A stretch of 32,130 nt of DNA from assembly GCA_002364615.1 (NCBI GenBank), contig DEYP01000006.1, positions 1 to 32,130 of the forward strand, given 5' to 3'. Both the position numbers and the translations under genes were made by a program. Shown in pieces: positions 2,318 to 25,007 of this stretch. The notes under the pieces were generated by a model that ran no database searches, was not told the DNA's origin, and was given only the letters and a program-made list of their open reading frames with translations. The DNA comes from Arsukibacterium sp. UBA3155 (GTDB taxonomy: Bacteria > Pseudomonadota > Gammaproteobacteria > Enterobacterales > Alteromonadaceae). How positions within the stretch are numbered: the first letter of the stretch is position 1; every line of letters begins with the position of its first letter.

Positions 2318-2920
2318 CTATTTCTCGAAGGTGGCTCGCATATAACCAAGTACGGCTTTCAGGTCGGCGTCGGTCAGACTGACATTGCCGCCCCGCGGTG
2401 GCATGGCCATGGGCGAGCCTGGACTCTGAAATCCATTGATCATGTTGCTCAGTAACTCTGCATCATTTTTGCTCAATGGGCCTTTCGACTTGGTGAAGTC
2501 CGGAATGCCAGGAAAGGCACCCTTGCCGTCGCCGCCATGGCATGCGATACAGGTGCTTTTGTAGACTGCCTCACCGGATAGACCGGAGTTGGCCAGATCC
2601 ACCGATACAGACTTTACTGTTACCTTTACTGCTGGTGTGTTCGATGCCTGCAGGAACGCGAGAATATCACGTTCGTCCACCCCCCACAGTCCAGCACGGA
2701 GGCGCATGTGCATAACAGTGGTGTCCCAGTAAGCATCTGAAAACTCCTTAGGGTCGCGCATGTTGTGACAACGGGCGCAGTTATTGGCCCATTTCTGAGC
2801 ACCCTTTGCTGCATCGCCTTTTGCTTCGGCCAGAGCCGGTGTGAGGACGGTTGCAGACAGTAACAAAGCCATACTACTTACACCGAAAAGCTTGCTAGTA
2901 ATAAATTTGCTGATTTTCAT
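2318..2920 (-). CDS. periplasmic diheme cytochrome c
   Basis: This 200-aa secreted electron carrier has an N-terminal signal peptide ending in TPALA (about residue 31). It has two heme-attachment motifs: CARCH at 48-52 and CIACH at 124-128. M70/M72 and the M171/M173 cluster (PMAMPPRGG) are candidate distal heme ligands. Each half looks like a class I cytochrome domain. A good ribosome site (GGGGAG) precedes the ATG. The gene lies 12 bp downstream of the porin gene and is surely co-transcribed with it. The electron partner is unknown. Its place in a copper island under a shared copper-regulator box suggests periplasmic redox chemistry on metal or a respiratory role under low oxygen (inference). 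Confidence 0.88.
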   Translation of the reverse strand: MKISKFITSKLFGVSSMALLLSATVLTPALAEAKGDAAKGAQKWANNCARCHNMRDPKEFSDAYWDTTVMHMRLRAGLWGVDERDILAFLQASNTPAVKVTVKSVSVDLANSGLSGEAVYKSTCIACHGGDGKGAFPGIPDFTKSKGPLSKNDAELLSNMINGFQSPGSPMAMPPRGGNVSLTDADLKAVLGYMRATFEK

Positions 2921-2932
2921 ATCAATTCTCCC

Positions 2933-4195
2933 CTAAAAACCGTAAGCCAGTTGCACTCGCACAGCGTTATCATCATCTGCGCCTGATGAGTCGTAGTCTT
3001 TTATCTCATAATTGAGCTTAACGACAACATGGGGGGCAAACAGGTAATTCAACCCCAGCGTGCGCTGAGAATAGTTTTCCGCAGAGTGAGGCGTCTGTAA
3101 TTCACTGGTGCGAACGACGACTTCAAATGATGTCGAGGGGATTTTATAGGCTGCCTGCAGATACCAGGCTTTCCATTGACCTACCTCAACTTCGTCAAAC
3201 TCCGCGGGGCCTGCATAATCTGCTGGAAGATCATCGCTGTGAAATTCGACTCCGGAACTACCTTCGCCAATCTCGGTTTTGAGGTATTCCCCTCTGAGCT
3301 CCAGGTTGTTCCAGCCATAGCGAAAATCAGCACCGATGACGTCATAATCAAATTCGCCTGTGGATTCAATATCGAGCTCAGGCCCATCGTGTCCACCAGC
3401 AAAAGCCTCCGTTACGGTGGCTTTACCTTTGGCAGCGGAAATCCCTATTTCCAAACCTGGAAACGGCAGTAGCCCAAGGCGGCCACCAAATGACTTCTTC
3501 CCGTCAGGGTCACTGGTACGGCCTTCGGTCTCCACCTCCTCGATGGCCAATTCGTAATCCCCTCCTTGTCCCTCTACTGCGGCGGCCAGGGTGGGCCCGT
3601 TACCAACATAAACAGCATAATTGGCGCGCATCTCGCCGAGTGGAAACCCGCCGCGCAATTGCAAGCCGGTCTCAGTTAGGGGCGCAGCTCCGCCATGCCC
3701 GAAGCCAGCGGGTGCCGAGACAGCTTTGTTGATCCAGCTAGGGTGCAAATTCTGCCGGAATTGACCTATGGGACTTAAAAATTTTCCCGCGCCAAGCGCT
3801 ACATAGTCATTCAGGAACAGGTTGATAGAGGCATATTCCAACGCCAGCTCAGTGCCCCCATCAGCTGTGTTCGACAGCTCAAATTCTGTTTCGAACATTA
3901 GCCAGTCTTGGTAATTGTAGTGGATGATGGGGGCGACCAATACCTTGTTAAAAGCGGCGTTGCCTGAATCCGGATCGGCGTACTCGACCGCTCCATAACC
4001 TGCCATATGAAATGACGAATCTGTATTACGTTCCGCTGCCGTGTTTTCCAAGCGATCAACTTGATTTTGAAGATCGTCGACTTGCTGCCTGAGATTGTCG
4101 GTCTGATTGTCTGCGTAAACAGCGGCAGGAACTATTGCCGCTGTAACACTTAAAGCCAGAAGGCAGCATTTGAGTTTTGACTTCTTCATGTTCAT
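2933..4195 (-). CDS. outer-membrane porin with N-terminal coiled coil
   Basis: The 420-aa protein begins with a signal peptide ending AAVYA (about residue 28). A short heptad-like segment follows (LRQQVDDLQNQVDRLEN, about 34-51), as in many trimeric porins. The rest is a beta-barrel rich in Gly and aromatic residues. The C-terminus RVQLAYGF ends in Phe, the outer-membrane assembly signal. The start ATG has an AAGGG site 6 bases upstream. Resemblance is to the broad phosphate-selective/DcaP-like porin type, without enough signal to assign a substrate. It is the first gene of the porin-cytochrome operon. Its upstream region carries the FNR and CopR-type sites described separately. Confidence 0.82.
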   Translation of the reverse strand: MNMKKSKLKCCLLALSVTAAIVPAAVYADNQTDNLRQQVDDLQNQVDRLENTAAERNTDSSFHMAGYGAVEYADPDSGNAAFNKVLVAPIIHYNYQDWLMFETEFELSNTADGGTELALEYASINLFLNDYVALGAGKFLSPIGQFRQNLHPSWINKAVSAPAGFGHGGAAPLTETGLQLRGGFPLGEMRANYAVYVGNGPTLAAAVEGQGGDYELAIEEVETEGRTSDPDGKKSFGGRLGLLPFPGLEIGISAAKGKATVTEAFAGGHDGPELDIESTGEFDYDVIGADFRYGWNNLELRGEYLKTEIGEGSSGVEFHSDDLPADYAGPAEFDEVEVGQWKAWYLQAAYKIPSTSFEVVVRTSELQTPHSAENYSQRTLGLNYLFAPHVVVKLNYEIKDYDSSGADDDNAVRVQLAYGF

Positions 4196-4288
4196 GGTTT
4201 TCCCTTATCGTTGATTTACCCAACTTCTACACCGGTAGCTGTCAAGCTAGTTGTCGCCTAAGGTGTGTTTTATTAAGCTTCTTTGTCT

Positions 4289-4294
4289 ATTATA
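4289..4294 (-). promoter_or_regulatory. -10 element of the porin-cytochrome promoter
   Basis: Minus strand reads TATAAT, a perfect consensus. The position 17 bp upstream reads ATCCAT, a poor -35, as expected for an activator-dependent promoter. The copper-type box begins 31 bp upstream, the same spacing as in the cop operon promoter. Confidence 0.55.
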
Positions 4295-4325
4295 TGGGGT
4301 GATGATTACGGATGGATAGCTCCAA

Positions 4326-4342
4326 CATGACATGACTGTAAT
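4326..4342 (-). promoter_or_regulatory. candidate CopR/CusR box upstream of the porin operon
   Basis: The plus strand reads CATGACA-tgac-TGTAAT. The same CATGACA-N4-TGTAAT arrangement occurs at 20023-20039 before the multicopper oxidase gene. In both places it has the same orientation and exactly 31 bp to a -10-like hexamer. It resembles the TGACA/TGTCA half-sites known for CusR/CopR/PcoR-type regulators of the OmpR family. Confidence 0.6.
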
Positions 4343-4357
4343 GTTTAGGTGTTTTGA

Positions 4358-4371
4358 TTGATTCAGATCAA
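4358..4371. promoter_or_regulatory. FNR/ANR-type box
   Basis: TTGATTCAGATCAA matches the FNR consensus TTGAT-N4-ATCAA at all ten fixed positions. The neighbouring cusA gene ends toward it, so the only gene it can serve is the porin-cytochrome operon. Its centre lies about 30 bp upstream of the copper-type box and about 82 bp upstream of the predicted transcription start. Confidence 0.65.
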
Positions 4372-4435
4372 CCAAATAGCATTAACCTATTTGTGCATTT
4401 GGTGCTTTATTGGTTTATACCACAGAGCTCCGGCA

Positions 4436-4455
4436 GGGGCAGACAAGTCTGCCCC
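4436..4455 (-). terminator. hairpin downstream of cusA
   Basis: GGGGCAGA (4436-4443) and TCTGCCCC (4448-4455) make a perfect 8-bp GC-rich stem with a 4-base loop, 16 bp beyond the cusA stop codon. There is no long U-tract, so it could be a weak terminator or a 3'-end stabiliser. Confidence 0.5.
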
Positions 4456-4471
4456 ATTTAGTTTGGCAATA

Positions 4472-7400
4472 TTATGCTTTCAGCGAGCGGGTGCGCCATA
4501 GGTAATACACGACGGGTAATACCAACAACGTTAAAATCACAGCACTCACCATTCCGCCCACCATAGGCGCCGCAATCCGGCTAACAACTTCCGCACCTGT
4601 TCCGGAACTGAACATAATGGGCAACAATCCAGCGATAGTGGAGACCGTAGTCATCATTACGGGTCTTACACGAAGTCCCGCGCCCTGTGTCACGGCTTCG
4701 AGCAAATCTTCTTTTAATGGTTGCACTCCACGCTCACGACAGGTATCTATCAATTGGTGATATGCTTGGTTAAGATAAGTTAACATGATGATACCTATCT
4801 CCACCGTAACCCCCGCCAGTGCAATAAAACCAACCGCAACCGCGACAGAAAAATTATAGCCAAGCAGGTACATCAGCCAGATTGAACCAATTACCGCCAG
4901 TGGTAGTGTTCCCAGAATAATGGCTATTTCAGTGAAGTTACGAAAATTCATGTATAACAGAATGATAATGATGGCAAGCGTCAAAGGAACCACATAGGTC
5001 AGTTTCTCTTTGGCGCGCAGCATGTATTCGTACTGACCGGACCAGGCCACCGAGTAACCGGCCGGTAAATCCAACTGCTGCTCGACCGTTGCCATGGCCG
5101 CTTGTACATAGCTGCCCACGTCCACCCCATCGATATCTACAAAGGTCCAGCCATTCAGCCTGGCGTTCTCGCTCTTGATCGCTGGCGGGCCGTCCTCCAC
5201 ATAGACATTGGCCACATCGGCGAGCGCAATGCGTTGGCCGCTGGGCGTAACGATGGGCAGCAGCGCCAGCTGTTCTGGCGAGTCTCGATAGTCCTGCGGG
5301 TAGCGCAGATTGATCGGATAACGCTCCAGCCCCTCAATGGTCTGCGCCACATTCATTCCCCCAATGGCCGTGGCTATTACCTGCTGCACATCAGCAATAT
5401 TGAGGCCATAGCGCGCCGCCTGTGCACGCTGAATATCCACCTTGATGTAACGCCCACCGGCCACCCTTTCGGAATACACCGAGGCTGTGCCGGGTACATC
5501 CTTGAGGATCTGCTCTAGTCGCTGACCAATCTTCTGAATTTCTCGCAGATCCTCGCCCGCCACCTTGATGCCTACCGGCGTCTTGATACCGGTGGCCAGC
5601 ATGTCGATGCGAGTCTTGATCGGCATCACCCAAGCGTTGGTTAGACCGGGGAATTTCACTAGCGCATCCAGCTCCTTCTTGAGCTTCTCCGTGGTCATGC
5701 CCTCGCGCCATTCCTCTTTGGGCTTGAGCTGAATAAAGGTCTCGATCATGGTCAGCGGAGCGGGATCCGTGGCTGTCTCGGCACGACCGATTTTGCCAAA
5801 CACGGTTTTTACCTCAGGCACTGTCGCGATCAGCTTGTCGGTCTGCTGCAACAATTCCCTGGCTTTGCCTATCGAGATCCCCGGATAAGTGGTCGGCATG
5901 TACATGAGATCACCTTCATCCAGATCGGGGATGAATTCACTACCAATCTTGTTAACCGGCCAGATCCCAACGAGGAAAATCACAACCGCAATCGCAAGTG
6001 TGATTTTCGGAAAACGCAATACGGTTTTCAGCAGGGGCATGTACCCGGCAATCAGTAATCGATTAACAGGATTCTTGTTTTCCGCTACCACCTTGCCTCT
6101 GATGAAATATCCCATCAAAACCGGCACCACTGTGATAGCAAGCGCCGCACTGGCTGCCATGGCATAGGTTTTGGTAAAGGCCAACGGGCTGAACATCCGG
6201 CCCTCCTGGGCTTCCAGGGTGAATACTGGTACAAAGCTCACAGTGATAATAAGCAAACTGAAAAACAGCGCCGGACCGACTTCACTGGCTGACGCCGCCA
6301 CGATTTTCCAACGGTTCTCTGGCGTCAAGGGCGTACGTTCCATATGCTTATGCATGTTTTCGATCATGACAATCGCGCCATCAATCATGGCGCCTATCGC
6401 AATCGCTATACCGCCTAATGACATGATATTGGCATTAAGGCCTTGCCAATACATCACGGTAAAAGCCGTGAGTATACCTAGCGGCAGACTGAAGACCGCC
6501 ACCAGTGAGGACCTGACATGAAACAGGAAAATGACACAGATCAACGCCACAATAGCGAGTTCTTCGGCCAGACTTTTCCACAAACTGTCAATGGCGCGAG
6601 ATATCAGCCCTGAACGATCATAAACGGTTACGATCTCCACGCCCTCGGGCAAACCCGCCTTGAGTTTTTCCAGCTTGGCCTTGACCCCATCAATGGTTTT
6701 CTGGGCGTTCTCACCGAAACGCATCACCACAATACCGCCCACCACTTCACCTTCGCCGTTCAACTCGGCGATGCCACGGCGCATTTGCGGCCCCAATTCG
6801 ATATCCGCCACATCCTTGAGCAACAGCGGCGTACCGTTAACATCCAACCCTAACGGAATGTTGGCCAGATCATCGATACTCTGGATGTAACCGCTGGCGC
6901 GCACCATGTATTCGGCTTCGGCCATTTCCACCACCGAGGCGCCCACTTCCTGGTTGCCGCGCTGGATAGCCATCTGGATAAGAGACAGGGGAATACCGAA
7001 GGCGCGCAGTTTTTCCGGGTTTACCTTCACTTGATACTGCTTGACCATGCCACCGAGCGCCGAGACTTCGGAAACACCCGGCACGGTTTGCAGCTCGTAT
7101 TTCAGGAACCAGTCCTGCAGGCTGCGCAGCTGACTGAGGTCATGCTTGCCGGTACGGTCCACCAGGGCGTAGAGATAGACCCAGCCAACTCCGGTAGCGT
7201 CCGGCCCCAGTTGCGGCCGGGCGCTGGGCGGTAATGTGGGCGCGACCTGAGACAGGTACTCCAGCACCCGGGAACGTGCCCAGTAGGCATCGGTATCCTC
7301 GTCGAAAATGACATACACAAAGGAATCGCCAAAAAAGGAATAACCGCGCACGGTAACCGCACCGGGTACCGACAACATGGCAGTAGTCAGTGGATACGTG

Positions 7401-7594
7401 ACCTGGTCCTCCACCACCTGCGGTGCCTGCCCAGGAAAACTGGTCTTAATAATGACCTGTACATCGGACAGATCGGGAATGGCGTCCACCGGGGTGTTTT
7501 TCAGCGAATAGAGACCCATCCCCACCAGCATCAAAGTAGCCAGCAGCACGAAGAAACGGTTACCGATGGACCAACGGATTATCGATTCAATCAT
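4472..7594 (-). CDS. cusA: CusA-type heavy-metal RND efflux pump
   Basis: This inner-membrane proton-driven pump expels Cu(I)/Ag(I) through the CusCBA channel. Length (1040 aa) is normal for the HME-RND family. The signature DVQVIIKTSFPGQAPQ stands near the N-terminus, and the proton-relay Asp is at 405 (GAMIDGAIVM). The three methionines that bind Cu(I)/Ag(I) in E. coli CusA (573, 623, 672) align with M566 (YMPTTYPG), M616 (PLTMIETF) and M665 (RIDMLATGI), all conserved. This favours monovalent copper/silver over the Zn/Co/Cd substrates of CzcA. The start overlaps the end of cusB by 8 bp, indicating translational coupling. It is the last gene of the operon. Confidence 0.95.
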   Translation of the reverse strand: MIESIIRWSIGNRFFVLLATLMLVGMGLYSLKNTPVDAIPDLSDVQVIIKTSFPGQAPQVVEDQVTYPLTTAMLSVPGAVTVRGYSFFGDSFVYVIFDEDTDAYWARSRVLEYLSQVAPTLPPSARPQLGPDATGVGWVYLYALVDRTGKHDLSQLRSLQDWFLKYELQTVPGVSEVSALGGMVKQYQVKVNPEKLRAFGIPLSLIQMAIQRGNQEVGASVVEMAEAEYMVRASGYIQSIDDLANIPLGLDVNGTPLLLKDVADIELGPQMRRGIAELNGEGEVVGGIVVMRFGENAQKTIDGVKAKLEKLKAGLPEGVEIVTVYDRSGLISRAIDSLWKSLAEELAIVALICVIFLFHVRSSLVAVFSLPLGILTAFTVMYWQGLNANIMSLGGIAIAIGAMIDGAIVMIENMHKHMERTPLTPENRWKIVAASASEVGPALFFSLLIITVSFVPVFTLEAQEGRMFSPLAFTKTYAMAASAALAITVVPVLMGYFIRGKVVAENKNPVNRLLIAGYMPLLKTVLRFPKITLAIAVVIFLVGIWPVNKIGSEFIPDLDEGDLMYMPTTYPGISIGKARELLQQTDKLIATVPEVKTVFGKIGRAETATDPAPLTMIETFIQLKPKEEWREGMTTEKLKKELDALVKFPGLTNAWVMPIKTRIDMLATGIKTPVGIKVAGEDLREIQKIGQRLEQILKDVPGTASVYSERVAGGRYIKVDIQRAQAARYGLNIADVQQVIATAIGGMNVAQTIEGLERYPINLRYPQDYRDSPEQLALLPIVTPSGQRIALADVANVYVEDGPPAIKSENARLNGWTFVDIDGVDVGSYVQAAMATVEQQLDLPAGYSVAWSGQYEYMLRAKEKLTYVVPLTLAIIIILLYMNFRNFTEIAIILGTLPLAVIGSIWLMYLLGYNFSVAVAVGFIALAGVTVEIGIIMLTYLNQAYHQLIDTCRERGVQPLKEDLLEAVTQGAGLRVRPVMMTTVSTIAGLLPIMFSSGTGAEVVSRIAAPMVGGMVSAVILTLLVLPVVYYLWRTRSLKA

Positions 7595-9212
7595 GATTGT
7601 GCTCCTTTTGATCGTGACCGCCGTGGTTCATGCCCTGGTGTTCGCTGTGCTCCGGCATCGACATATCACCGTGATCCATACCCTCGTGCTGACCGTGATC
7701 CATTCCTGCAGGCATGGCATCATTGCCTTGCTCATTGGGAATATGCACTTGGGTAATCTGGTATCCACCACTGTTGTTATTGGTGATCTGCACATGCAGG
7801 CGCATTCCCTGTTTGAGCGCATCCATGTCCACAGCCTCAGCGACGGTGAAATCCATGGTCATGGTGGGCCATTGCCAGTCCGGGATGGCCTCGTGCTCCA
7901 GGGTCACCATGCGGTGATCCGGCATCAGGCTGTCGATACGTGCGGCCACCCAGACTGAGCGGGAATCAGCGTCTGCCTTTACATCCATTGATTCGCCTTG
8001 CTGATCGCGCTTGGCCATGCGCTTGAAGTCCGACGTCTTGCTGGATTCCGAGTCGATCAGGAACTGAGCAGAGGTCACAATGCGTTCCCCTTCTTTGAGT
8101 CCCGACTGAATTTCCACCTGCCGCTCGCCCACGCGGCCGACCTCAACGGCCACCGATTTGAATTTGCCATCACCCAGCGCCAACACCACGCGCGCCTGGC
8201 TGCCGGTACGGATCAGCGCTTCCCGCGGGATTAACAGTGCTTCAGCCCCCGCCTGGGTCTCAATGACCATCTGCGCGAACATGCCCGGCTTGAGGAAGTC
8301 GTCCGGGTTGTCGAAATGCACCCGGATTTGCGCGGTACGTGTCTTGGCATTCAAAGACGGATAGACATAGTCCACCTGGCCCAACCAATCCCGACCGGGC
8401 AGGTAATCGAGCCGCATCCGCACCTGGTCGCCGGTCTTGACCAGGCTTGCCTGTCGTTCGAACACCTCACCGATCACCCAGATATGTTCTAGCTGGCCGA
8501 TGCTCATCAGACTCAAGCCAGGCTTGACGAACATGCCCTCACGCACCGCGAGATTGTCCAGTACCCCGGACTGCGGCGCGGCAACGGTGATGGTCTGGCT
8601 GACCTTGCGGGTTTTACGCAGCCGGTCGATATCTGCCTGAGGTACTTGCAATGCCAATAACCGTTCCACGGCAGCGCCGATCAACACCGGATTGTCGCGT
8701 TTCAACGCCAACAACAATTCCTCCTGGGCGTTGACCAGGGTGGGTGAATAGAGGGTGTACAGGGGGTCGCCCTGTCTGACCGGATCCCCGGCGGCCTTGA
8801 CATGGAGCTTCTCGATCCAGCCTTCCACGCGCGGGCTGATATGCACCAGCCGGTTCTCATCGTATTGCACGTAACCGACGGTTTTGACATCCAGATCCAG
8901 AGACCCGGACCCAACCGTGGCGGTGCGCACGCCGAGATTGTTGACGACCTCGGGCGATATCTTGACGGTGCCGGCTTCATCCTCTCCGGCGGATTTCTCG
9001 TACACAGGGATCAGATCCATGCCCATGGGCGATTTGCCAGGCTTGTCGCGCTTGTAGTTGGGATCCATGGGCGCCACCCAGTAAAGTGGCTTGCGTTCAC
9101 CGCCGGTTGCTGTCATATCCCCCTCATCGGGGTTGCCGAGCAGCCAGACGCCGGATGCGCCGAGCAGCGCGCCGACGGCCGTGCCCAGCAAGGTTTTGGT
9201 GAATGTATTCAT
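7587..9212 (-). CDS. cusB: CusB-type adaptor fused to a CusF-like domain and His/Met tail
   Basis: This periplasmic membrane-fusion protein joins CusA to CusC. The 541 aa are longer than a plain CusB (about 400). An N-terminal membrane anchor (about 7-26) is followed by a metal-binding motif (YWVAPMDPN, KPGKSPMGMDLIP, 44-69), the lipoyl/hairpin/barrel region (about 105-390) and a CusF-like domain (about 418-493). In that domain H440, W448, M451 and M453 reproduce the spacing of the CusF Cu(I) site (H36, W44, M47, M49). Residues 500-541 are a tail with repeated MDHG/MNHG units. CusF is usually a separate chaperone, so the fusion delivers copper within one polypeptide. Ribosome site AAGGAG precedes the ATG. 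Confidence 0.93.
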   Translation of the reverse strand: MNTFTKTLLGTAVGALLGASGVWLLGNPDEGDMTATGGERKPLYWVAPMDPNYKRDKPGKSPMGMDLIPVYEKSAGEDEAGTVKISPEVVNNLGVRTATVGSGSLDLDVKTVGYVQYDENRLVHISPRVEGWIEKLHVKAAGDPVRQGDPLYTLYSPTLVNAQEELLLALKRDNPVLIGAAVERLLALQVPQADIDRLRKTRKVSQTITVAAPQSGVLDNLAVREGMFVKPGLSLMSIGQLEHIWVIGEVFERQASLVKTGDQVRMRLDYLPGRDWLGQVDYVYPSLNAKTRTAQIRVHFDNPDDFLKPGMFAQMVIETQAGAEALLIPREALIRTGSQARVVLALGDGKFKSVAVEVGRVGERQVEIQSGLKEGERIVTSAQFLIDSESSKTSDFKRMAKRDQQGESMDVKADADSRSVWVAARIDSLMPDHRMVTLEHEAIPDWQWPTMTMDFTVAEAVDMDALKQGMRLHVQITNNNSGGYQITQVHIPNEQGNDAMPAGMDHGQHEGMDHGDMSMPEHSEHQGMNHGGHDQKEHNHD

Positions 9213-9223
9213 GTTGAACTCCT

Positions 9224-10555
9224 TTAAAACGGTTTCGCCGGCCGTGCATCGTCGAACGACGCCTCGGCGAGCAGGTAATTGATTTGGGCGATGGTCTTCT
9301 GCCGATCCACGGCAATGGCGAGCGCGTCGACCTTGGCATTCAATTCGGCAATGCGAGCACGCACGGCTTCGGCGAAGTCGCCGTCGTCGTTGTTGTAGGC
9401 GGTCAGCGAAGCTTCTGCCTGCTCAGCCATTTGCGGCAGCAGCTGATCGGCGTATAACGCCTGGCGTTCATCAAGACGCGCCAGTTGCACGCTCGCGGTT
9501 TCCAGTTCCGCCATCAGCCGACGACCAAGCAAGTGCTTTTCGGTTTTGATGGCCTCGGTTCGATTGACGGCGGCGCTGACTTCCTTGTCCTGCCGGTTAC
9601 CGGTGAAAATGGGCAGGTCGAAGTTCACGCCAACGGAGAACAGATCGGCCCGGTCGCGCCCCATGGGATCGCTGTCGCGATAGCCGTATTGGGCGGTCAG
9701 GCCCCATTCGGGCTTGTATTTCTGTTTTGCCAGATCCACACCGGTTTGCGTTGCGTCGATACGCTGGTCCAGCGCTCGCAACGCGGGATGATGACGGATC
9801 CATTCGTAGCGCGTATGCTCGCTGGACTGCTTAATGGTCGGTACCGACAGTGGCCTGGAAAGAGACTGTGTCGGTAGTACCGGAGCCAGAGGGACAGTGG
9901 CAGGCGCACCGATCCATTCGGTCAGACGCTTTTGTGCGGCTTGCTGTTGCTGCCTGAGCATCGTCAGTCTGTCTTCGAGACGAGTCAGCTCCAACTGCGC
10001 ACGGATCACGTCCTGCTGACGTGCCCTGCCCAGCGCCGAGGAGTAACCCGCTTTGGCGGCATCCACCAACTGCTCAAACAGTGCGCGATCCTGTTCGATC
10101 AGCCGGATACTCTCCTGAGCTTTGAAGGCCTCCAGCCACAACTGGCTGACCATAGCGCTTACCTTGGCCTTGCGATCCAACCTTAGCAGTGGATGTTGCT
10201 CGGCTAGTTGCTGCTTTTGATGCTGGGCGAGCGCAAGGCTATCGCCCCGTGGAAACATCTGGCTGACCCCTACCGACAACTGGGTCATGGCTTCCTGGTT
10301 CAAATCGAAAGTGTCCACGGGGAAATTGCCCGCCATCAAGCTCACTCGTGGGTCCGGTAAAGTCGCCGCGGCTATCGCTTCATCATTGAGAGCTTCCTGA
10401 GTGAACTGGCTTCCCGTAAGCCAGGGATCAGCATCTACGGCAAGTGCAACCGCCTGCTCCAACTTCAGTGGCTCAGGAAACGTCTGAGCATACCCAATAA
10501 CATTGCTGACGCTTAGCGACAAAACGACAAAGAAAGTAACATTTGACAAGTTCAT
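9224..10555 (-). CDS. cusC: CusC/CzcC-type outer-membrane efflux factor
   Basis: This is a TolC-like trimeric outer-membrane channel for the Cus pump. The ATG at 10555 is chosen because GGAGG lies 5 bases upstream; an upstream TTG gives four extra residues and would consume that site. The 443-aa product has a signal peptide (to about residue 23) without a lipobox Cys, unlike E. coli CusC. It contains two repeats of the outer-membrane efflux domain, beginning LKLEQAVALAVDADPWL and, in the second half, the RYEWIRHHPALRALDQRIDA region. Long Ala/Gln/Glu-rich helices typical of the periplasmic tunnel are evident. The gene ends 11 bp before cusB. Confidence 0.9.
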   Translation of the reverse strand: MNLSNVTFFVVLSLSVSNVIGYAQTFPEPLKLEQAVALAVDADPWLTGSQFTQEALNDEAIAAATLPDPRVSLMAGNFPVDTFDLNQEAMTQLSVGVSQMFPRGDSLALAQHQKQQLAEQHPLLRLDRKAKVSAMVSQLWLEAFKAQESIRLIEQDRALFEQLVDAAKAGYSSALGRARQQDVIRAQLELTRLEDRLTMLRQQQQAAQKRLTEWIGAPATVPLAPVLPTQSLSRPLSVPTIKQSSEHTRYEWIRHHPALRALDQRIDATQTGVDLAKQKYKPEWGLTAQYGYRDSDPMGRDRADLFSVGVNFDLPIFTGNRQDKEVSAAVNRTEAIKTEKHLLGRRLMAELETASVQLARLDERQALYADQLLPQMAEQAEASLTAYNNDDGDFAEAVRARIAELNAKVDALAIAVDRQKTIAQINYLLAEASFDDARPAKPF

Positions 10556-10679
10556 TAGTGCCTCCAAAACAATTTAACAAAAAGCAAACTAACCACTAAC
10601 GAAGCGACATGCTCTCATTATTAGTGTTAGCAAAATACTTTGCAGTATGCCTTTCTCAAACGTATTAAAATCAAGTGAT

Positions 10680-17123: not shown

Positions 17124-18143
17124 TTAAAACCAAAACCGTAAACCGGCAACTAGCGCAGTTTCTTGAGTTGCTTCATCGTACAAACGGGCGAGATCGGCCG
17201 TATTACCATACTTATTACTCCATTCTATACCGGCATAGGGTGCCAATTGGCGGGAAAATTCATAGCGCATACGCAAACCGACGTTTGAAGACGTCAATCC
17301 TTTACCGATAGCATTTACCGCGTCATCTTTACCGTAAGCAGCTAGTTCTGCCCGCGCTTGCAATACCAGGCGTTGGGTCAACAACACTTCATATTCTGCT
17401 TCAGCGGCCAGTGCAGTACGCCCATTACTACCAACGTAAGCGGTGATATCCAGCTCAAACCAGTATGGTGCCAGCCCTTGAATGCCAAATGCCAGCCATT
17501 GCCGACTTTCACCCTCAGCATTTTGATCGAACCGTACACCAAGCTGGCGATCCCAGTATGCTGCAACTGCATGTCCCCACAACAAATCGGTCTGACTTTC
17601 TTCCAGTATACCCTCGCTAACATGCCCTTCAGATTTCACTACCAGTTTATCGTAGGTGGTGCCATACCAGGCCTGCATATCGAACACCACTGCATCGGTG
17701 TCAATATCGTACTCCAGCCGGTCCCCCACAATTGACCACATTGGATGCTCAACAGCATGTTTTAAATGCCGGGAGTCTGCCATGCCATAGGGGCCGTCTG
17801 TCAGGGTGTAACCACTGGAATAAGCGTGTGGATCGCGCGCATCCGCCGGCGCCTTACCGCCCTGCATCTGCATATCGCCGTGATCCATGCTGCTGTGATC
17901 CATCGGCTTCTCGTCATGCTGCATTTTGCTGTGGTCCATTTGGTTATGGTCCATCGGCATCTCATCTTGCTGCATTTTGCTGTGGTCCATCTTGCTGTGA
18001 TCTACACCACTGTTATCCTGCGTTTCATGCTGATGTGGTTGCGCTTCAGTCGCGGTTTGTGCGGCCAGGCCGCCACTTAATAGCAATAATGTGCTGGTGA
18101 ACAATAAAACCGGCAGCTTGGTTGTCGCAATTGGTTTCTTCAT
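17124..18143 (-). CDS. copB: CopB outer-membrane copper-binding protein
   Basis: The ATG at 18143 overlaps the copA stop (ATGA), which fixes the start. The 339-aa product has a signal peptide ending GGLAAQ (about 29). A Met/His/Asp-rich repeat region follows (about 47-93) with units such as MDHSKM, MDHNQM and MDHGDM. A C-terminal beta-barrel domain begins DPHAYSSGYTLTDGPYG and ends ALVAGLRFWF, with terminal Phe. CopB sequesters copper at the outer membrane. Near-identical MDHSKMQ units, which favour slippage, can change repeat number between strains. Confidence 0.93.
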   Translation of the reverse strand: MKKPIATTKLPVLLFTSTLLLLSGGLAAQTATEAQPHQHETQDNSGVDHSKMDHSKMQQDEMPMDHNQMDHSKMQHDEKPMDHSSMDHGDMQMQGGKAPADARDPHAYSSGYTLTDGPYGMADSRHLKHAVEHPMWSIVGDRLEYDIDTDAVVFDMQAWYGTTYDKLVVKSEGHVSEGILEESQTDLLWGHAVAAYWDRQLGVRFDQNAEGESRQWLAFGIQGLAPYWFELDITAYVGSNGRTALAAEAEYEVLLTQRLVLQARAELAAYGKDDAVNAIGKGLTSSNVGLRMRYEFSRQLAPYAGIEWSNKYGNTADLARLYDEATQETALVAGLRFWF

Positions 18144-19954
18144 GCCACCACCACTTCTCTGAACATGCCTGCATCCATATGGAACAATAAGTGACAATGC
18201 CAGGCCCAGCGGCCTACATCATGGGGCGTGGTTAAAAAACTAATACGCTGTGCCGGCTGAACCGGTATGGTATGACGCCGAACCAGCACTTCACCACTGT
18301 CATTTTCCAGGTCGCTCCACATACCATGCAGATGCATCGGATGGGTCATCATCGTGTCATTCTGCAAAATAACCCGGATGCGCTGGTTAAGCTTCATATG
18401 CACCGGGGTACTTTTACTGAACTCTAAACCGTCAATTGACCAGCTATAACGCTCCATATTGCCGGTAAGGTGTAACTCTATTTCTGCTTCCGGGCCACCC
18501 TTTTCGATAATGCCGTCCAATGAATGTAAATCGGCCAGCGTTAATGCCCGCCGTCCGGTATTTCGCAAACCAATACCTGGATCGTCCAGATTGGTTCTGG
18601 GCATGTCCACCCGCATATCGACCGACGGGCCGTATTCGGTGCTGGCGTGGCGCACTGTTTTGCTGGGCACAGCAAATGGTGTTGGCCTGGCATGCTGACT
18701 GTGATCCATTGCCATGCCACCGTGCATACTATGATCCACCGCGGCACTGCCAGTCGCCATAGCGCCTGCCTGCATCGCGCTGTGGTCCATCGCGTTGCTG
18801 CCTGCCATATCACCCATCATGTCGGCCATGGTTAGCCACTCCACCGGATCTAACGCCGGCACAGGCGCATTTAGGCCAGCCGCTACTGCCAGCGTTCCTC
18901 GGGCGTAACCGCTTCGGTCCATACTTTGAGCGAAAATGGTATAGGCATCGGTTTGCGGCGTGACGATAACATCGTAGGTTTCACCTGGGCCAAAGCGGAA
19001 TTCGTCTACCGTTACCGGATGCACATTTTGTCCATCGGCCTGCACCACGGTCATTTTCAGTTCGGGAATACGCACGTCAAAAAAGGTATTGCTGGAGCCA
19101 TTGATAAAACGTAAACGCACTTTTTCGCCTCGCTGAAACAAGCCGCGCCAGTTGGCCAGTGGTGTGCTGCCATTCATTAAATAAGTTAAGGTTGCCGCAG
19201 ACAAATCGGCCAGGTCAGTGGGGTTCATCCGCATCTGTTGCCACATTTTGCGTTTCGCTAAGGCCGCTTCTAAACCTTTAGCCGACATATCGCGAAAAAA
19301 GTCCCGTACTGTTGGCTGATTAAAATTATACACATCACTTTGCACTTTCAGTTTGCCAAACACCTGCCTCGGATCATCGTCGGTCCAATCTGACAGCTGC
19401 ACCACATATTCGCGATCGGCAGTAATAATATCTTGTGCTCTGGGCTCAATGATCAGCGCACCATACATGCCGGTCATTTCCTGAAAACCACTGTGAGAGT
19501 GATACCAGTAGGTGCCGCTCTGCTGCAACGTAAAGCGATAAACAAAGGTTTCACCGGGCATAATGCCCCTGAAACTCATGCCGGGCACACCGTCCATCTG
19601 GTAAGGTAAAATAATGCCGTGCCAGTGAATAGAACTGGGTACTGACAAGGTGTTAGTCACTTTTATCGTGACCTCATCCCCCTCACGCAGGCGTAACGTT
19701 GGGGCGGGAATGGAACCATTAATCGTCGTTGCTGTTCGCACTACCCCCGTAAAGTTAACCAGGGCTTCGCCAATGGTCAGCTCAATAACCTTGCCGCTTA
19801 ACTCTGACGCATAGCCGGTGAAAGCATTATCTCTGAAGCGGCTACCCGCATGCACAATATGCGGAAAGGTAGCCAATACACCGCCCGCAGCCAGCCCCTG
19901 GACGAAACGGCGACGCGACACTGACCGCGGCATCGATAACTTGTTGCTGCCCAT
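18140..19954 (-). CDS. copA: CopA/PcoA-type multicopper oxidase
   Basis: This periplasmic oxidase converts Cu(I) to less toxic Cu(II). The 604-aa protein has a twin-arginine signal (SRRRFVQG, 13-20), so it is exported folded. Copper ligands are visible as HWH (110-112), YHSH (151-154), HPMHLH (538-543) and HCHLLFHMDAGM (586-597), where C587, H592 and M597 belong to the type 1 site. Residues about 376-421 form a Met/His-rich insert with MDHS and VDHSMH units, typical of CopA and thought to bind extra copper. GAGGG precedes the ATG. It heads the copABCD-SnoaL-DUF411 operon and is divergent from copR. The symbol is the same as that of the ATPase by convention. Confidence 0.96.
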   Translation of the reverse strand: MGSNKLSMPRSVSRRRFVQGLAAGGVLATFPHIVHAGSRFRDNAFTGYASELSGKVIELTIGEALVNFTGVVRTATTINGSIPAPTLRLREGDEVTIKVTNTLSVPSSIHWHGIILPYQMDGVPGMSFRGIMPGETFVYRFTLQQSGTYWYHSHSGFQEMTGMYGALIIEPRAQDIITADREYVVQLSDWTDDDPRQVFGKLKVQSDVYNFNQPTVRDFFRDMSAKGLEAALAKRKMWQQMRMNPTDLADLSAATLTYLMNGSTPLANWRGLFQRGEKVRLRFINGSSNTFFDVRIPELKMTVVQADGQNVHPVTVDEFRFGPGETYDVIVTPQTDAYTIFAQSMDRSGYARGTLAVAAGLNAPVPALDPVEWLTMADMMGDMAGSNAMDHSAMQAGAMATGSAAVDHSMHGGMAMDHSQHARPTPFAVPSKTVRHASTEYGPSVDMRVDMPRTNLDDPGIGLRNTGRRALTLADLHSLDGIIEKGGPEAEIELHLTGNMERYSWSIDGLEFSKSTPVHMKLNQRIRVILQNDTMMTHPMHLHGMWSDLENDSGEVLVRRHTIPVQPAQRISFLTTPHDVGRWAWHCHLLFHMDAGMFREVVVA

Positions 19955-19985: not shown

Positions 19986-19991
19986 AGTCTA
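19986..19991 (-). promoter_or_regulatory. -10-like element of the cop operon promoter
   Basis: The minus strand reads TAGACT (matching TAnnnT plus one more position). It is placed exactly 31 bp from the copper-type box, as in the porin promoter. Confidence 0.45.
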
Positions 19992-20022
19992 GTGATTAAA
20001 GCTGTCAGCAGCATGACTCAAA

Positions 20023-20039
20023 CATGACAAAGTTGTAAT
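20023..20039. promoter_or_regulatory. CopR/CusR box in the divergent copA-copR region
   Basis: Plus strand reads CATGACA-aagt-TGTAAT. The inner part TGACAA-AG-TTGTAA is close to the known CusR palindrome (TGACAA-N2-TTGTCA). A further TTGTCGTCAT half-site-like stretch follows at 20041-20050 on the copR side. The location between the oxidase operon and the two-component genes suggests control of both by phosphorylated CopR. Confidence 0.7.
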
Positions 20040-20108
20040 CTTGTCGTCATCTTGCTGTATGCCTACCAGCGCCATACTTCTGGCAGAGCCAACGCCAAAG
20101 GAAAAAAG

Positions 20109-20795
20109 ATGCGTTTACTGATTGTTGAAGATGAACTGAAAACCGGTGACTATCTCAAGCAAGGTCTGACTGAAGCCGGCTTTCAGGTATCGCTGGTCAG
20201 AAATGGCCTGGATGGTCATCATCTGGCGATGACAGAAGCCTTCGATCTGATCATTCTCGATGTGATGCTACCCGACGTCAGCGGCCTGCGCATCGTGCAG
20301 GCACTGCGTGAGCGCGATAACCGCACGCCGGTGCTGTTTTTATCGGCCCGCGACAGCGTAGATGACCGGGTGAAGGGGCTTGAGCTGGGTGCCGATGATT
20401 ACCTAATCAAGCCATTTGCCTTTTCTGAAGTACTGGCCCGGGTACGCACCCTGCTGCGACGCGGACAAAACATCAGCGCCGCTGAGCTGTTACAGGTAGC
20501 CGATTTGCAGTTGGATATCGCCAAACGCAAAGTAGTGCGCAGCGGCACAAAAATAACGCTCAGTCATAAAGAGTTTTGTTTACTGGAGCTACTGATGCGC
20601 CGCCGGGGTGAAGTTTTGCCGCGATCGCTTATCGCATCGCAGGTATGGGATATGAATTTTGACAGCGATACCAATGTTATCGATGTGGCTATCCGGCGCC
20701 TAAGGGCAAAAGTAGATGACAGCTTTACGCCTAAACTGATCCATACTGTGCGCGGGATGGGTTATAAACTGGATGAAGAGCAAGATAATGAATAA
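20109..20795 (+). CDS. copR: CopR/CusR-type response regulator
   Basis: The ATG at 20109 (MRLLIVEDE) has AAAGGAA upstream and matches the family start. The 228-aa OmpR/PhoB-type regulator has a receiver domain (1-115) with D51 as phospho-acceptor ([10 protein letters not shown]), S79 and K101 (LIKPFAF). A winged-helix DNA-binding domain (about 128-225) ends GMGYKLDEE. It overlaps the sensor kinase gene by 8 bp. Expected targets are the CATGACA-N4-TGTAAT boxes at 20023-20039 and 4326-4342. Proteins of this kind are activators that respond to periplasmic Cu(I)/Ag(I). Confidence 0.93.
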
Positions 20796-22182
20796 CAGCC
20801 GTCAGCGCCCGCTGTCTCTTACGCTACGCGTGGTGCTTTTTGTCACTTTGACCATTTCAATTTGCCTGTTTTTTGTCAGACAGATGCTGATAAGCTCGGT
20901 TGAGCATCATTTTATTCAACAGGATGCGGATGAGCTGGCAGTTATCGTGCGTTCTGTCGAAGAAATACTGCACCGTGCCGCAACTCAGCAACAACTGAGC
21001 GCAACGTCACTGTCGTTGGCGGTTGCCGGGCATCATGGCGTGTTTTATCAAATTATGGATGAACACAACGCGCTGATTTATCGCAATGCCGATTTTGATT
21101 TAACTCAGCTGTCAAGCCTCTCAGTCGCAGCCGACCATTTTGATGATGCGCAGATTTTCAACTGGACGCTGGCAGAAAAAACATATCACGGTGTAGTAGT
21201 GAAACTTACTTCCGCAGCCGCAAACTACCAGGTTATTGCCGCCATTGATACCAGCTTTCACTTGCAGTTTTTGCAGCAATTGCAAAGAAGCCTTGGTTTT
21301 ATTTTATTTGGTTCCTGCATACTCACGCTGCTGGCCGCCTGGCTGGCGGTGCATCAGGGCCTGGGACCTCTCAGAGGCTTGACTGAGCAGATGCGCGATA
21401 TTCAAACCAATAAACTCGACATCCGGCTCAACTCTAATACAGTACCTGCGGAATTAGAGCATATGGTGCAGTCATTCAACCATATGCTGCACCGACTGGA
21501 AGAAGGCTTTACCAAGCTGTCGCATTTTAGTGCCGACATTGCGCATGAGCTGCGCACTCCACTAACCAATATCATTACCCAAACCCAGGTTAGTTTATCC
21601 AAGCCACGTACGCTGCAGGAATACCAGAATGTGTTGTTTTCAAATCTGGAAGAACAAGAACGATTAAACAAAATGATTAGCGACATGTTGTGGTTGGCGA
21701 AAAGTCAGAATGGGCTGATCACACTGCAAAAGCAGCCGCTAAATCTTGCGGACGAAATTAACGCGATTTTTGACTTTTTCGAAGCATTAGCTGAAGAGTC
21801 CGGCGTTACGTTACAATTTTCCGGCGCGGCAATTATGGTGCAGGCTGACCGCACGTTACTGCGCCATGCGTTAACCAATCTGCTGTCGAATGCATTAAGG
21901 TATACCGCTAAGGGCCAAAGCATTACCGTAACAACGGCGTTGGCTGCACCTGGCTCGGTTACTATTTGTGTCGAAAATCCTGGACTACCCATTCCGCCAA
22001 AACATTTACCCTTTTTATTTGAACGTTTTTATCGAGCTGACCAATCAAGACAACGCCATAGTGAAGGTGCGGGTTTAGGTTTGGCTATTACTAAAGCCAT
22101 TGTTGACGCGCATGAAGGTCATATCAGTGTCGAATCAGATCAGCAAAGCACCCGCTTTGTGGTCAGGCTGAAAACAGCCTGA
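20788..22182 (+). CDS. copS: CopS/CusS-type heavy-metal sensor histidine kinase
   Basis: This inner-membrane sensor of periplasmic copper phosphorylates CopR. I prefer the ATG at 20788 (464 aa); one five codons earlier (20773) is also possible. Transmembrane helices lie at about 14-34 and 168-188 and enclose a periplasmic sensor domain of about 130 residues containing HHFIQQ and GHHGVFYQI, with His residues that may bind metal. A HAMP linker follows, then the phospho-acceptor H253 ([14 protein letters not shown]). The N box ([11 protein letters not shown]) and the G box (EGAGLGLAI) complete the kinase. Length fits the heavy-metal sensor kinase family. Confidence 0.93.
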
Positions 22183-22238: not shown

Positions 22239-24086
22239 CTAACTGAACTCATCAAAGGCGATGTTACTTTCAGGCACCCCTTTGTCACGCAGTAACCGGA
22301 TCGTGTCATCCATTAGGCCTTTGGGCCCGCACAGATAAAACTCAGGTTCACCTTGTTCAACCACATTCTGCCAATTCAACGCCAGCACGTGCTGTGCATA
22401 GCCGGTCGCACCCAACCAGCCTTTGTCCGGCCGTGACAACACCGGGTAGTAATGAAAATGCGGGTACTGCTTCGCCAGCTGATAAAAGTAGTCGACGTAA
22501 ATCACATCATTTTCATTGCGGGCGCCGTAAAAGAAATGCAGCGGCCGGGGCGGCTTGTCGCCTTTATTGTTGCGATGCAGCGCTAACTGTTCTTCAATCA
22601 GCGCTTTTAGTGGCGCCATGCCCGAGCCTGCCCCCACCAATACCATGGTTTTGTCACTGCCTGGGTTAGCGTAAAACTCTTCAAACGGCCCTAAAGCCTC
22701 AACCCGGTCACCAATGCGCAAGTTCCCCAGATAATTAGAACCAATACCGGGCAATACCGACGGGTTAGTTGCGCTTTGCAGCTTAATGACAAACACTAAC
22801 TCGTTTGTAGCTTCATCTATGCCGGCTAAGGAATAGCTTCTGCTACAGGCACCATGTTGATAGTTTAACCGGGCGATATGCTGCCAGTCCGGTTGCAATG
22901 AACCTGGCACATCTGCCGGCACGGAGCAGCCACTGGCCTTCGGGATAAAGAAGCGCATAAACGCACCGGCTTTATAGCGCATGGGTACCTTAGACTGGGT
23001 GGTAAAGCGTAACTCTTTAATAAACGGGCTTAAAAAGGTGCTGTTGACTAATTCCAGCTGGTACTTTTTCGCATCGGTAATATCCATCAGTGTCATATGT
23101 TCAACATCATCACTGAAGTGCTGGCAAGCCAGGCGGTACCCCTGTTCCAGTTCGAAGACGCTGAAGTGCTGCAAATCCGCCGCGGTGCTTTTCACATTTT
23201 GATTTATCATGATGCAGCACCGGCCACAGGTGCCACCGCCGCCGCAGGTGGAAGGCAAAATGATATTGTGCTCAACCAAACCATCCAACAAATTTTTATG
23301 GTTGGAAAACGCCACCTGGCCCAGGCTTTTCTGGTTGCGGTCAAATAACTTTACCGTGTTTTTGCGGCCAAACAGCTTAATTTTATACTGACCGCGCAGC
23401 GCCAGATCGACGGTCCAGACCATGCCGGTGCCGCTGAGCCACAAGGCGACAAAGGCAAATACCATCATCAGCACGCTGTTAAAACTGCCTTCGTTGGCAT
23501 AATCCATAAAATGCAGTTTCAGGAAAAAATCTGCCAGCCGTTTGTCAGCATCACTGTGGCCGGCAATACGGCCTGAGTCTGCCTCAACATAGACGCTGGT
23601 GTTAATTTCATCGGCAAAGTTAACCTGCCACACGGCATTCTTTTGTTTGAGTAAATCGGCAATCGGCGGCTGCATCAATGTTACAGATACGATTTCACCC
23701 GGCCCGCTATATGAAGCGCTTGCCAACTGCCGGGCAAAATCCGCATCGACCGTCAGCGGCTGGCCTGTCTGCGCATCGACCAAGCTGTGTTTGTTGACAA
23801 AGTTAGCGTACAAACCGCGCTGATGGTTAAGCAAATAATACGGTTTTTGCGCCAACTCAATTAACGTCAGCGAGGTGCTGGGTGCATACTGCCGTAACAC
23901 CTCGGCAGGCTCCTGCAGCGCCAGCGTATGCCAGCTCAGCGACGGATGCTGATGCGCTTTGTAAGTGTGTCCCGCCGCTTTGGTATGGTCCATAAAGTTG
24001 AAATACATACCACTGCCCAGCCAGATCAGAAACTGAATGCCAACGACAACAGAGGCCCACTTATGCAGTTTTCTGACTGTATTCAT
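22239..24086 (-). CDS. PepSY membrane protein fused to NqrF-like 2Fe-2S/FAD/NADH reductase
   Basis: This 615-aa fusion has an N-terminal PepSY-TM-like part: TM1 about 11-30, a periplasmic domain about 31-202 and TM2 about 203-226. A cytoplasmic electron-transfer part follows. It has a plant-type [2Fe-2S] domain with C281, C287, C290 (STCGGGGTCGRC) and C321 (YRLACQ), FAD-binding RSYS (416-419), NADH-binding GAGSGMAP (485-492) and CGP (586-588). The order and motifs match the soluble part of NqrF of the sodium-pumping quinone reductase. Positive charges at 4-9 and 231-246 place the reductase in the cytoplasm. It probably moves electrons from NADH across the membrane to a periplasmic metal-ligand substrate. 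Its ATG overlaps the stop of the upstream PepSY gene (ATGA). Confidence 0.85.
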   Translation of the reverse strand: MNTVRKLHKWASVVVGIQFLIWLGSGMYFNFMDHTKAAGHTYKAHQHPSLSWHTLALQEPAEVLRQYAPSTSLTLIELAQKPYYLLNHQRGLYANFVNKHSLVDAQTGQPLTVDADFARQLASASYSGPGEIVSVTLMQPPIADLLKQKNAVWQVNFADEINTSVYVEADSGRIAGHSDADKRLADFFLKLHFMDYANEGSFNSVLMMVFAFVALWLSGTGMVWTVDLALRGQYKIKLFGRKNTVKLFDRNQKSLGQVAFSNHKNLLDGLVEHNIILPSTCGGGGTCGRCCIMINQNVKSTAADLQHFSVFELEQGYRLACQHFSDDVEHMTLMDITDAKKYQLELVNSTFLSPFIKELRFTTQSKVPMRYKAGAFMRFFIPKASGCSVPADVPGSLQPDWQHIARLNYQHGACSRSYSLAGIDEATNELVFVIKLQSATNPSVLPGIGSNYLGNLRIGDRVEALGPFEEFYANPGSDKTMVLVGAGSGMAPLKALIEEQLALHRNNKGDKPPRPLHFFYGARNENDVIYVDYFYQLAKQYPHFHYYPVLSRPDKGWLGATGYAQHVLALNWQNVVEQGEPEFYLCGPKGLMDDTIRLLRDKGVPESNIAFDEFS

Positions 24087-24841
24087 GGCGCAACTCCAAC
24101 TGTATGGCTGTCATTGCCAGCCGGTGCCGTTAATGCCTCATCCGTTTTACGAAACACACGGAAATAGGCCAGCACCATGCCCAGTACAGAAGCTAACATA
24201 CCGAACAAGGTAAACCAGAACAGCAGGCTGTTATCAATATCGGCGCCGTCATCGTAATCCATCACATGGAAGCGAAACATCCAGTCAAACAGGCGCCAGA
24301 AACTATGCCGTTTACCTACCAGCAAGCCTGTTTCGGCAGACACGTAAATTGCCGGGGCGCCAAAGTCGCTGAAATTTACCCGCCAGGCAGGCATGACCTT
24401 AGGGTTAAGCTCAAATGGCGCATTTTCACTGATAAGCTCGGCGCTTTCGACAGTGCCGGCACCGCTGTAATAAAACCGGGCAGCTTGTTCTGCCTGAGCC
24501 TGACCTAACGGCGGCATGATCGCACCGCAACTGGCGTCGATCGCTAACTTTTGTTCTGCCAGCGTAAAACGATACACCACCTTATCCAGATAACGGCCCA
24601 ACGTAATGGCTTTTGCCTGCGGATACTGTTGTAACAAGCTATGTAATGAGTAGGTTACCTGCTGCGGGTCGATTTTATCCTGTTCGTTATTAACCAGGGT
24701 ATCGCCATGGATATAATCAATATCAAAAAACACCATATAGGCCCCGGTTACCGACCAGATAATAAACTGCAGGCCTATAAACGCCATCAGCCATTTATGG
24801 TATTTCCTGCTGGTTTTCAGCAGCCGCATTGATTTATTCAT
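24083..24841 (-). CDS. PepSY-TM domain membrane protein
   Basis: The ATG at 24841 has GAGGG upstream; earlier in-frame sequence is not conserved-looking. The 252-aa protein has TM1 (about 17-38), a periplasmic domain and TM2 (about 205-227). It is paralogous to the N-terminal half of the next gene's product. Shared features are HKW at TM1 (H15 here, H8 there), GxQFxIW, a W-x-VNF-D segment, YVxAxxG and the xHxMDY motif before TM2 (H192 in both). The membrane-edge His residues are candidate heme ligands, as in siderophore reductases of the PepSY/FoxB type (inference). It is translationally coupled to the reductase fusion and lies 166 bp after the TonB-dependent receptor gene, behind a terminator hairpin. 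Confidence 0.82.
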   Translation of the reverse strand: MNKSMRLLKTSRKYHKWLMAFIGLQFIIWSVTGAYMVFFDIDYIHGDTLVNNEQDKIDPQQVTYSLHSLLQQYPQAKAITLGRYLDKVVYRFTLAEQKLAIDASCGAIMPPLGQAQAEQAARFYYSGAGTVESAELISENAPFELNPKVMPAWRVNFSDFGAPAIYVSAETGLLVGKRHSFWRLFDWMFRFHVMDYDDGADIDNSLLFWFTLFGMLASVLGMVLAYFRVFRKTDEALTAPAGNDSHTVGVAP

Positions 24842-24940
24842 TCCCAACCCTCTAGTCCGGCACGGCCTGGTTTCACGCAGCAGTTTAATAGCCGCGTAGG
24901 AGGCCTGTGGCCCGGACAAAACCATTAATTACTGTTATGA

Positions 24941-24989
24941 GAAAAGTAAACACCAGGGCCCTATGGTATACGGGCATACGGCCCTGGTG
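24941..24989 (-). terminator. strong hairpin terminator after the TonB-dependent receptor gene
   Basis: CACCAGGGCC (24951-24960) and GGCCCTGGTG (24980-24989) pair perfectly over 10 bp with a 19-base loop. On the minus strand the stem is followed by TTTACTTTTC. This is a good intrinsic terminator placed inside what otherwise looks like one operon. It would lower expression of the two reductase genes relative to the receptor unless there is a second promoter in 24842-24940. Confidence 0.75.
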
Positions 24990-25007
24990 CTACCGATAAA
25001 AGCTGAC

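Follow-up and report, generated by a model that had tools for sequence, protein, structure and literature searches.

The operon of a porin gene and a diheme cytochrome c gene in the marine bacterial DNA analysed here is probably controlled by CopR, and we regard this as the best explanation of its promoter. Porin and cytochrome would then share a switch with copper-resistance genes, hinting that the pair, on which little work exists, takes part in the copper response. The window, 32,130 bp, is the entire contig C28 of an assembly of 3,888,708 bp in 30 contigs; besides the genes in Table 1, the same contig encodes a copper ATPase, a DUF411 protein and copABCD. We propose that a separate CopR-type promoter, at about 4289-4342, serves the porin-cytochrome operon (2318-4195). 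On a rise in periplasmic copper, CopS would let CopR become or stay phosphorylated. CopR dimers would then bind the ATTACA-N4-TGTCAT inverted repeat and the subsequent half-sites at 11-bp steps. Bound beside a -10 element that lacks a good -35, CopR would recruit RNA polymerase as presumed at copA. Judged by comparison of genomes, CopR control appears well supported in the lineage, and we are a little less sure of it for the window's exact copy.

Table 1. Genes and promoter elements of the window; positions marked + are counted from the core operator.
Feature	Position	Strand	Description
Diheme cytochrome c gene	2318..2920	-	200 aa, two CXXCH motifs, 12 bp past the porin gene
Porin gene	2933..4195	-	420 aa, weakly matching Porin_O_P; outer-membrane beta barrel and N-terminal helix predicted
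-10 TATAAT, +33..+38	4289..4294	-	fits TAnnnT at +33 or +34
Fourth half-site-like CGTAAT, +17..+22	4305..4310	-	in 11-bp register with TGTCAT
Third half-site position, +7..+12	4315..4320	-	GCTATC, degenerate
Porin core operator (predicted) ATTACA-GTCA-TGTCAT	4327..4342	-	exact box of a unique pair; second on the 16-bp matrix
FNR/Anr-like palindrome TTGATTCAGATCAA	4358..4371		upstream of the CopR-type operator; lead only
Perfect 8-bp stem-loop	4436..4455		between cusA and the porin promoter; terminator-like score on the + strand only
cusCBA efflux genes	4472..10567	-	cusA 4472-7594, cusB 7587-9212, cusC 9224-10567
copA, copper-resistance multicopper oxidase	18140..19954	-	TIGR01480, 906 bits
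copA -10 TAGACT	19986..19991	-	at +33 from the core
copA/copR operator	20002..20061		core 20024-20039
copR, heavy-metal response regulator	20109..20795	+	TIGR01387, 335 bits
copS, sensor kinase	20773..22182	+	CusS sensor domain; TIGR01386

An earlier note on this DNA had described a 17-bp box, CATGACA-N4-TGTAAT, before both the cop and the porin-cytochrome operons. Both copies are present (4326-4342 and 20023-20039), each an exact TGACA-N4-TGTMA inverted repeat, and a gap of 31 bp separates each from its minus-strand -10 (TATAAT, 4289-4294; TAGACT, 19986-19991). The assembly-wide scan that the note had suggested returned the exact 13-base pattern twice, both times in this contig. Scaled from a reversed-pattern control, chance predicts approximately 0.1 exact match per genome, so a second match within the same 32-kb contig is unlikely to be fortuitous. 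With up to 2 mismatches, the 3.89-Mb assembly contains 97 matches (48 + 49) versus 87 (47 + 40) for the reversed pattern, and with up to 3 the window contains 13, against a shuffle mean of 11.1. These counts are close to chance and only exact matches are therefore informative; mismatch-tolerant matching of the short box, no better than chance in window or genome, was dropped in favour of exact and extended matches. When scored with a 16-bp matrix built from 21 boxes upstream of copA in relatives, the site at 20024 ranked first in the window (23.2) and the porin site at 4327 second (13.99), with the third at 10.3. The model predicts 0.040 chance sites per 10 kb for scores of at least 13 and 0.025 for scores of at least 14.

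Comparison of copA promoters indicates that the operator extends beyond the 17-bp box, which forms its first portion. Of 30 copA loci within the order, counting the window's own, 23 combine the 16-bp core with GTCA at +7 and with a TAnnnT element that starts at +33 or +34. No operator was found at the other seven (L129-L132, L135-L137), all of which have more divergent copA genes; one of them, L129, has the short box only, and this box was part of the 16-bp training set. The core alignment comprised 22 loci, L129 being left out along with L114, a duplicate of L113. All 22 show GTCA at +7, a GACAG-like element around +18, and TAnnnT at +33 (4 loci) or +34 (18 loci). The half-sites recur at an 11-bp pitch (TGTCAT to GTCATG), a spacing that resembles the direct repeats bound by OmpR-family regulators. 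The published CopR/CusR consensus is TGACA-N4-TGTCA with several half-sites per promoter, and in P. putida an extended, multi-half-site binding region was footprinted at cop promoters without typical -10 and -35 boxes, as given in the accessible part of PMC12428095. The copA alignments and this footprint together argue that the box is part of a longer operator and that its distance from the -10 is a family rule. The repeat and its multiple half-sites resemble CopR/CusR/PcoR operators as far as these are described there, and here they lie between divergent copA and copR. The assignment of the box to the CusR/CopR type is thus supported by comparison, given the conservation of the copA operator. 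The shared geometry is likewise real, but it does not tie the two operons to each other in particular, as every one of the 23 copA loci with the operator has its -10 at +33 or +34. As for the extent of the operator, the box is there, but the true operator is predicted to be larger, with half-sites every 11 bp, one of which is damaged before the porin.

The operator was next scored as a whole with a 38-bp matrix trained on 21 copA sites, from which the window's own copA site was excluded. Over the whole window, the highest scores were obtained for the copA reading (minus strand, 20002-20039; 48.1) and the copR reading (plus strand, 20024-20061; 38.7), followed by the porin site (12.0), the next site scoring -1.4. 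No operator before cusC was among the top-scoring sites of the window. The copA/copR operator, situated between copA on the minus strand and copR, followed by copS, on the plus strand, matches the extended pattern with 0 mismatches in both directions, and the third half-site towards copA (GTCA at +7) is intact. The porin core operator, 131 bp upstream of the porin gene, has perfect half-sites and an unusual centre (TGAC). At +7 GTCA is missing and GCTA is found instead; with this half-site damaged, the porin site falls clearly short of the copA site in strength (12.0 versus 48.1). The damaged half-site combined with a consensus -10 suggests that the window's porin promoter is probably a weaker variant or one that depends less strictly on copper, and we infer that its site is still functional. 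The poor -35 claimed for this promoter is weakly borne out: a search of 4150-4520 detected no sigma-70-like promoter that includes a -35, a limited argument because shuffles average just 0.7.

To look beyond the window, porin relatives were collected by a scan of GTDB genomes, which gave 267 confirmed stretches, and the best 80 of these were analysed. Upstream sequence was usable for 76 and too short for the 4 omitted. The 38-bp matrix scored at least 10 in 7 of the 76 porin upstreams versus 0.43% of 2,091 random stretches, and in 7 of 50 versus 11 of 370 upstreams of other genes, a control not purged of copper genes. The remaining 69 of 76 scored below 10; control of these porins, if any, must take another route, e.g. 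read-through. The seven scoring upstreams represent four lineages: a Spongiibacter type (L138, L141, L162), Kangiella (L139, L140), L173 and L183. Relative to the window, porin identity is 98% in Spongiibacter marinus (L138), 96-98% in L141 and L162, and 82-83% in the two Kangiella. Eight porin promoters were compared, and TAnnnT stands at +33 or +34 in five of them (window, L139, L140, L173, L183) versus 2.2% expected by chance; L138, L141 and L162 have GACAAT or GATAAT at +34 rather than TAnnnT. Both Kangiella promoters contain ATTACA-N4-TGCAAT, GTAA at +7, and TATAAT or TATCAT at +34, and the blocks conserved between Spongiibacter-type and Kangiella promoters are the core, the -10 and an upstream palindrome. 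In L183 a porin-facing site (17.4) is accompanied by TATCGT at +34, and a stronger, oppositely facing site (24.2) lies further upstream. The clearest candidate outside the window is L173, from a metagenome-assembled genome, in which one full-strength operator is located between divergent copRS and porin-cytochrome genes, scoring 34.5 towards the porin and 35.3 towards copR. The recurrence of the arrangement before orthologous porins in four lineages and the divergent operator of L173 make CopR control the best explanation, and the placement of the pair in the CopRS regulon, as the earlier note had predicted, is supported to this extent. The 16-bp matrix gave a weaker contrast before porins (7 of 76 at 10 or more versus 1.2% of 1,363 random stretches); its matches in L148 and L157 were dropped as apparently lying inside the coding sequence of the preceding gene, and that in L181 was not sustained on the 38-bp matrix.

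Several points weigh against CopR control: the degenerate GCTA half-site, the porin and copA loci that lack an operator, and the extended operator pattern, which at 2 mismatches occurs 13 times genome-wide, the porin site included, versus 14 times for the reversed control. A different regulator, acting alone or with CopR, could control the operon, though we consider this unlikely; it might be FNR/Anr acting at TTGATCTGAATCAA or a metal-responsive OmpR-family protein that uses the same half-sites. The palindrome upstream of the core operator, which we take to be FNR/Anr-like, is perfect in the window and retained with one change in both Kangiella promoters, and an FNR-like protein whose N-terminus contains CxxCxxxxxC is encoded in the genome. 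Exact copies were found in 7 of 76 porin upstreams versus 1.15% of random stretches. Against the fairer control of 370 gene upstreams the enrichment shrinks (exact, 5 of 50 versus 2.7%, three of the five being nearly identical; up to one mismatch, 9 of 50 versus 8.9%), and the palindrome is therefore treated as a lead only. Such an input would also be compatible with CopR control, not exclusive of it. For the OmpR family, the accessible portion of PMC11195947 reports the site form CTGACAn5GTAAT and common targets of CopR, CusR and CzcR in P. paraeruginosa; that related regulators share half-sites counts against CopR specifically.

The near-identical relatives bear on a further possibility, that CopR control is ancestral and the site is decaying here, leaving the operon mostly constitutive or under another regulator. 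The third half-site reads GTCATC in S. marinus and GCCATC in L141 and L162 (GTAATC in Kangiella L140), so that GTCA, GCCA and the window's GCTA form a series of loss. The -10 is GACAAT or GATAAT in these relatives versus TATAAT in the window, consistent with a gain, and the window site scores 12.0 versus 24.8 in S. marinus. However, the 16-bp core is identical in the window, L138, L141 and L162, a further GTAAT stands in register at +18, and TAnnnT at +33 occupies the position used by the window's copA, so that we rate decay to this degree as rather unlikely and continue to prefer CopR control. Even less can be said for a chance match of the box with transcription of the porin operon by read-through from cusCBA or other upstream genes, which is very unlikely: in many relatives the porin is preceded on its own strand by a cusA-type gene, the operator is missing from 69 of 76 upstreams and mismatched boxes are as frequent as chance predicts, but the two exact matches in 3.89 Mb fall within one 32-kb contig, the core, spacing and -10 agree with copA promoters, L173 joins copRS and porin in one divergent arrangement, and a stem-loop separates cusA from the porin promoter.

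The two proteins themselves were also analysed. The porin matches PF07396 with 26 bits (cut-off 20.9). Its AlphaFold model (pLDDT 85.2) is rich in long strands, approximately 17 of them with nine or more residues, as in a 16-18-strand barrel, and has an N-terminal helix. Foldseek retrieved general porins, e.g. Vibrio OmpU/OmpT, at E values of about 1e-12 with a TM score of only about 0.5. No NCBIfam family was assigned to the porin, and sequence profiles against solved structures gave nothing convincing for it. For the cytochrome the same profiles returned generic cytochromes c. Its model is of moderate quality (pLDDT 74.6) and nothing reached E 0.001 in the fold search; an alignment of 36 sequences shows conservation of the two heme motifs and of a QSPGSPMAMPPKGGN-like region. 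The porin was found without close relatives in viral contigs, and the operon without near-identical DNA in plasmids. In a Halieaceae metagenome-assembled genome (L141, 10001-12557), a 98%-identical porin gene is present in two pieces about 1.3 kb apart.

Pairing of the two genes is nearly invariant. In 79 of the best 80 of the 267 porin loci, a cytochrome-c match follows the porin on the same strand; in the exception, L209, the contig stops 26 bases past the porin match. The first cytochrome frame past the porin has a single heme motif in 25 of 71 readable loci (L138-L217); 14 of the 25 have another cytochrome match beyond that frame. By thresholds of our own, on which these counts depend, at least one copper gene is present in 44 of the same best 80 loci, and in 23 of the 31 that extend over at least 20 kb. 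A copper gene lies within 3 kb in 35 of 80 porin loci versus 0 of 33 stretches of approximately 3 kb from the window's own genome, and by the same thresholds 21 of 58 porin loci of at least 10 kb are without one. More distant porin-cytochrome pairs (porin identity about 27-39% over the matched parts) also lie near copper genes, both in other genomes of the order and on Alteromonas macleodii and Glaciecola plasmids. For a Shewanella pair (G171, porin 49%), no convincing copper gene was present within the 20 kb fetched. A Legionella anisa plasmid (NZ_CP082853.1; L104, 10798-14984) encodes a 758-aa fusion in which three cytochrome c domains precede a porin-like part; two more cytochrome genes come after it, and a CusA/CzcA-type pump is encoded about 10 kb upstream.

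These surroundings bear on the view that a porin and a cytochrome are an unusual output for copper resistance. This was overstated, since the pair often stands amid copper genes and metal-responsive control is reported for the porin OprD of P. aeruginosa, in a review whose available text also cites a proteomic study against a copper link (PMC7922089). Like OprD as described there, the porin of the window is predicted to be under metal-responsive two-component control. Unlike OprD, which is lowered via CzcRS and Hfq, the activator-type promoter suggests that the porin would be raised. The CopRS regulon of P. aeruginosa, as listed in the accessible part of PMC7763554, comprises pcoA, pcoB, ptrA, queF and PA2807 and includes no porin-cytochrome pair; in the window, by contrast, a further copy of the operator precedes a porin and a diheme cytochrome c. 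Copper lowers rather than raises several porins of A. ferrooxidans, according to the available text of PMC6070983, which counts against activation by CopR and raises the question why a channel and an electron carrier would be made under copper stress. The regulatory site itself, by its sequence, is a member of a known family, and what is new in copper-regulon content is the predicted copper-switched porin-cytochrome pair. A pair whose porin was found in 267 GTDB stretches would thereby be tied to the copper response by promoter and neighbourhood. The operator model spans 38 bp with half-sites every 11 bp, places the -10 at +33 or +34 and dispenses with a -35; it can be used to list candidate CopR targets in marine bacteria.

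As to function, the outer-membrane barrel genetically tied to a c-type cytochrome recalls Cyc2 and the porin-cytochromes (PCC). The Legionella anisa fusion, with N-terminal cytochrome domains and a C-terminal barrel, has the order described for Cyc2 in the accessible text of PMC5566968. Cyc2 was compared by description; unlike in Cyc2, the window's cytochrome is a separate diheme protein and not part of one polypeptide, the context is copper resistance and not iron oxidation, and the fold is like that of ordinary porins. It is conceivable, though we hold it to be quite unlikely, that porin and cytochrome form a copper-induced outer-membrane redox unit, a copper counterpart of the Cyc2-like porin-cytochromes that would be widespread in marine Gammaproteobacteria. 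In it, a diheme (or multi-heme) cytochrome of the periplasm would be docked in or at the barrel and would carry electrons between copper in the periplasm and either the cell exterior or the respiratory chain. Such a unit would aid Cu(I) oxidation in situations beyond the reach of CopA, an oxygen-dependent oxidase, and an FNR-type low-oxygen input might be added. In the open PMC text we found no description of a copper-linked porin-cytochrome redox unit, and the main text of an Alteromonas copper paper, as available (PMC8478169), contains neither 'porin' nor 'cytochrome'.

A second copA-like cluster with a degenerate operator upstream is present in the same genome on contig C2 (G000; L231, 17856-17881), a contig on which tblastn detected no CopR at 1e-6. 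Within the window, the product of cusB (7587-9212) has a CusF copper-binding domain at its C-terminus and a heavy-metal-binding domain at its N-terminus. Transposase or integrase genes lie close to both contig ends (85-1263, 1599-2222, 29335-30360), so that the copper cluster looks like a mobile island. Beside copRS, a TonB-dependent receptor is encoded together with PepSY/flavin-reductase genes (22239-27683), and comparable reductase genes are present in some of the other copper loci fetched.
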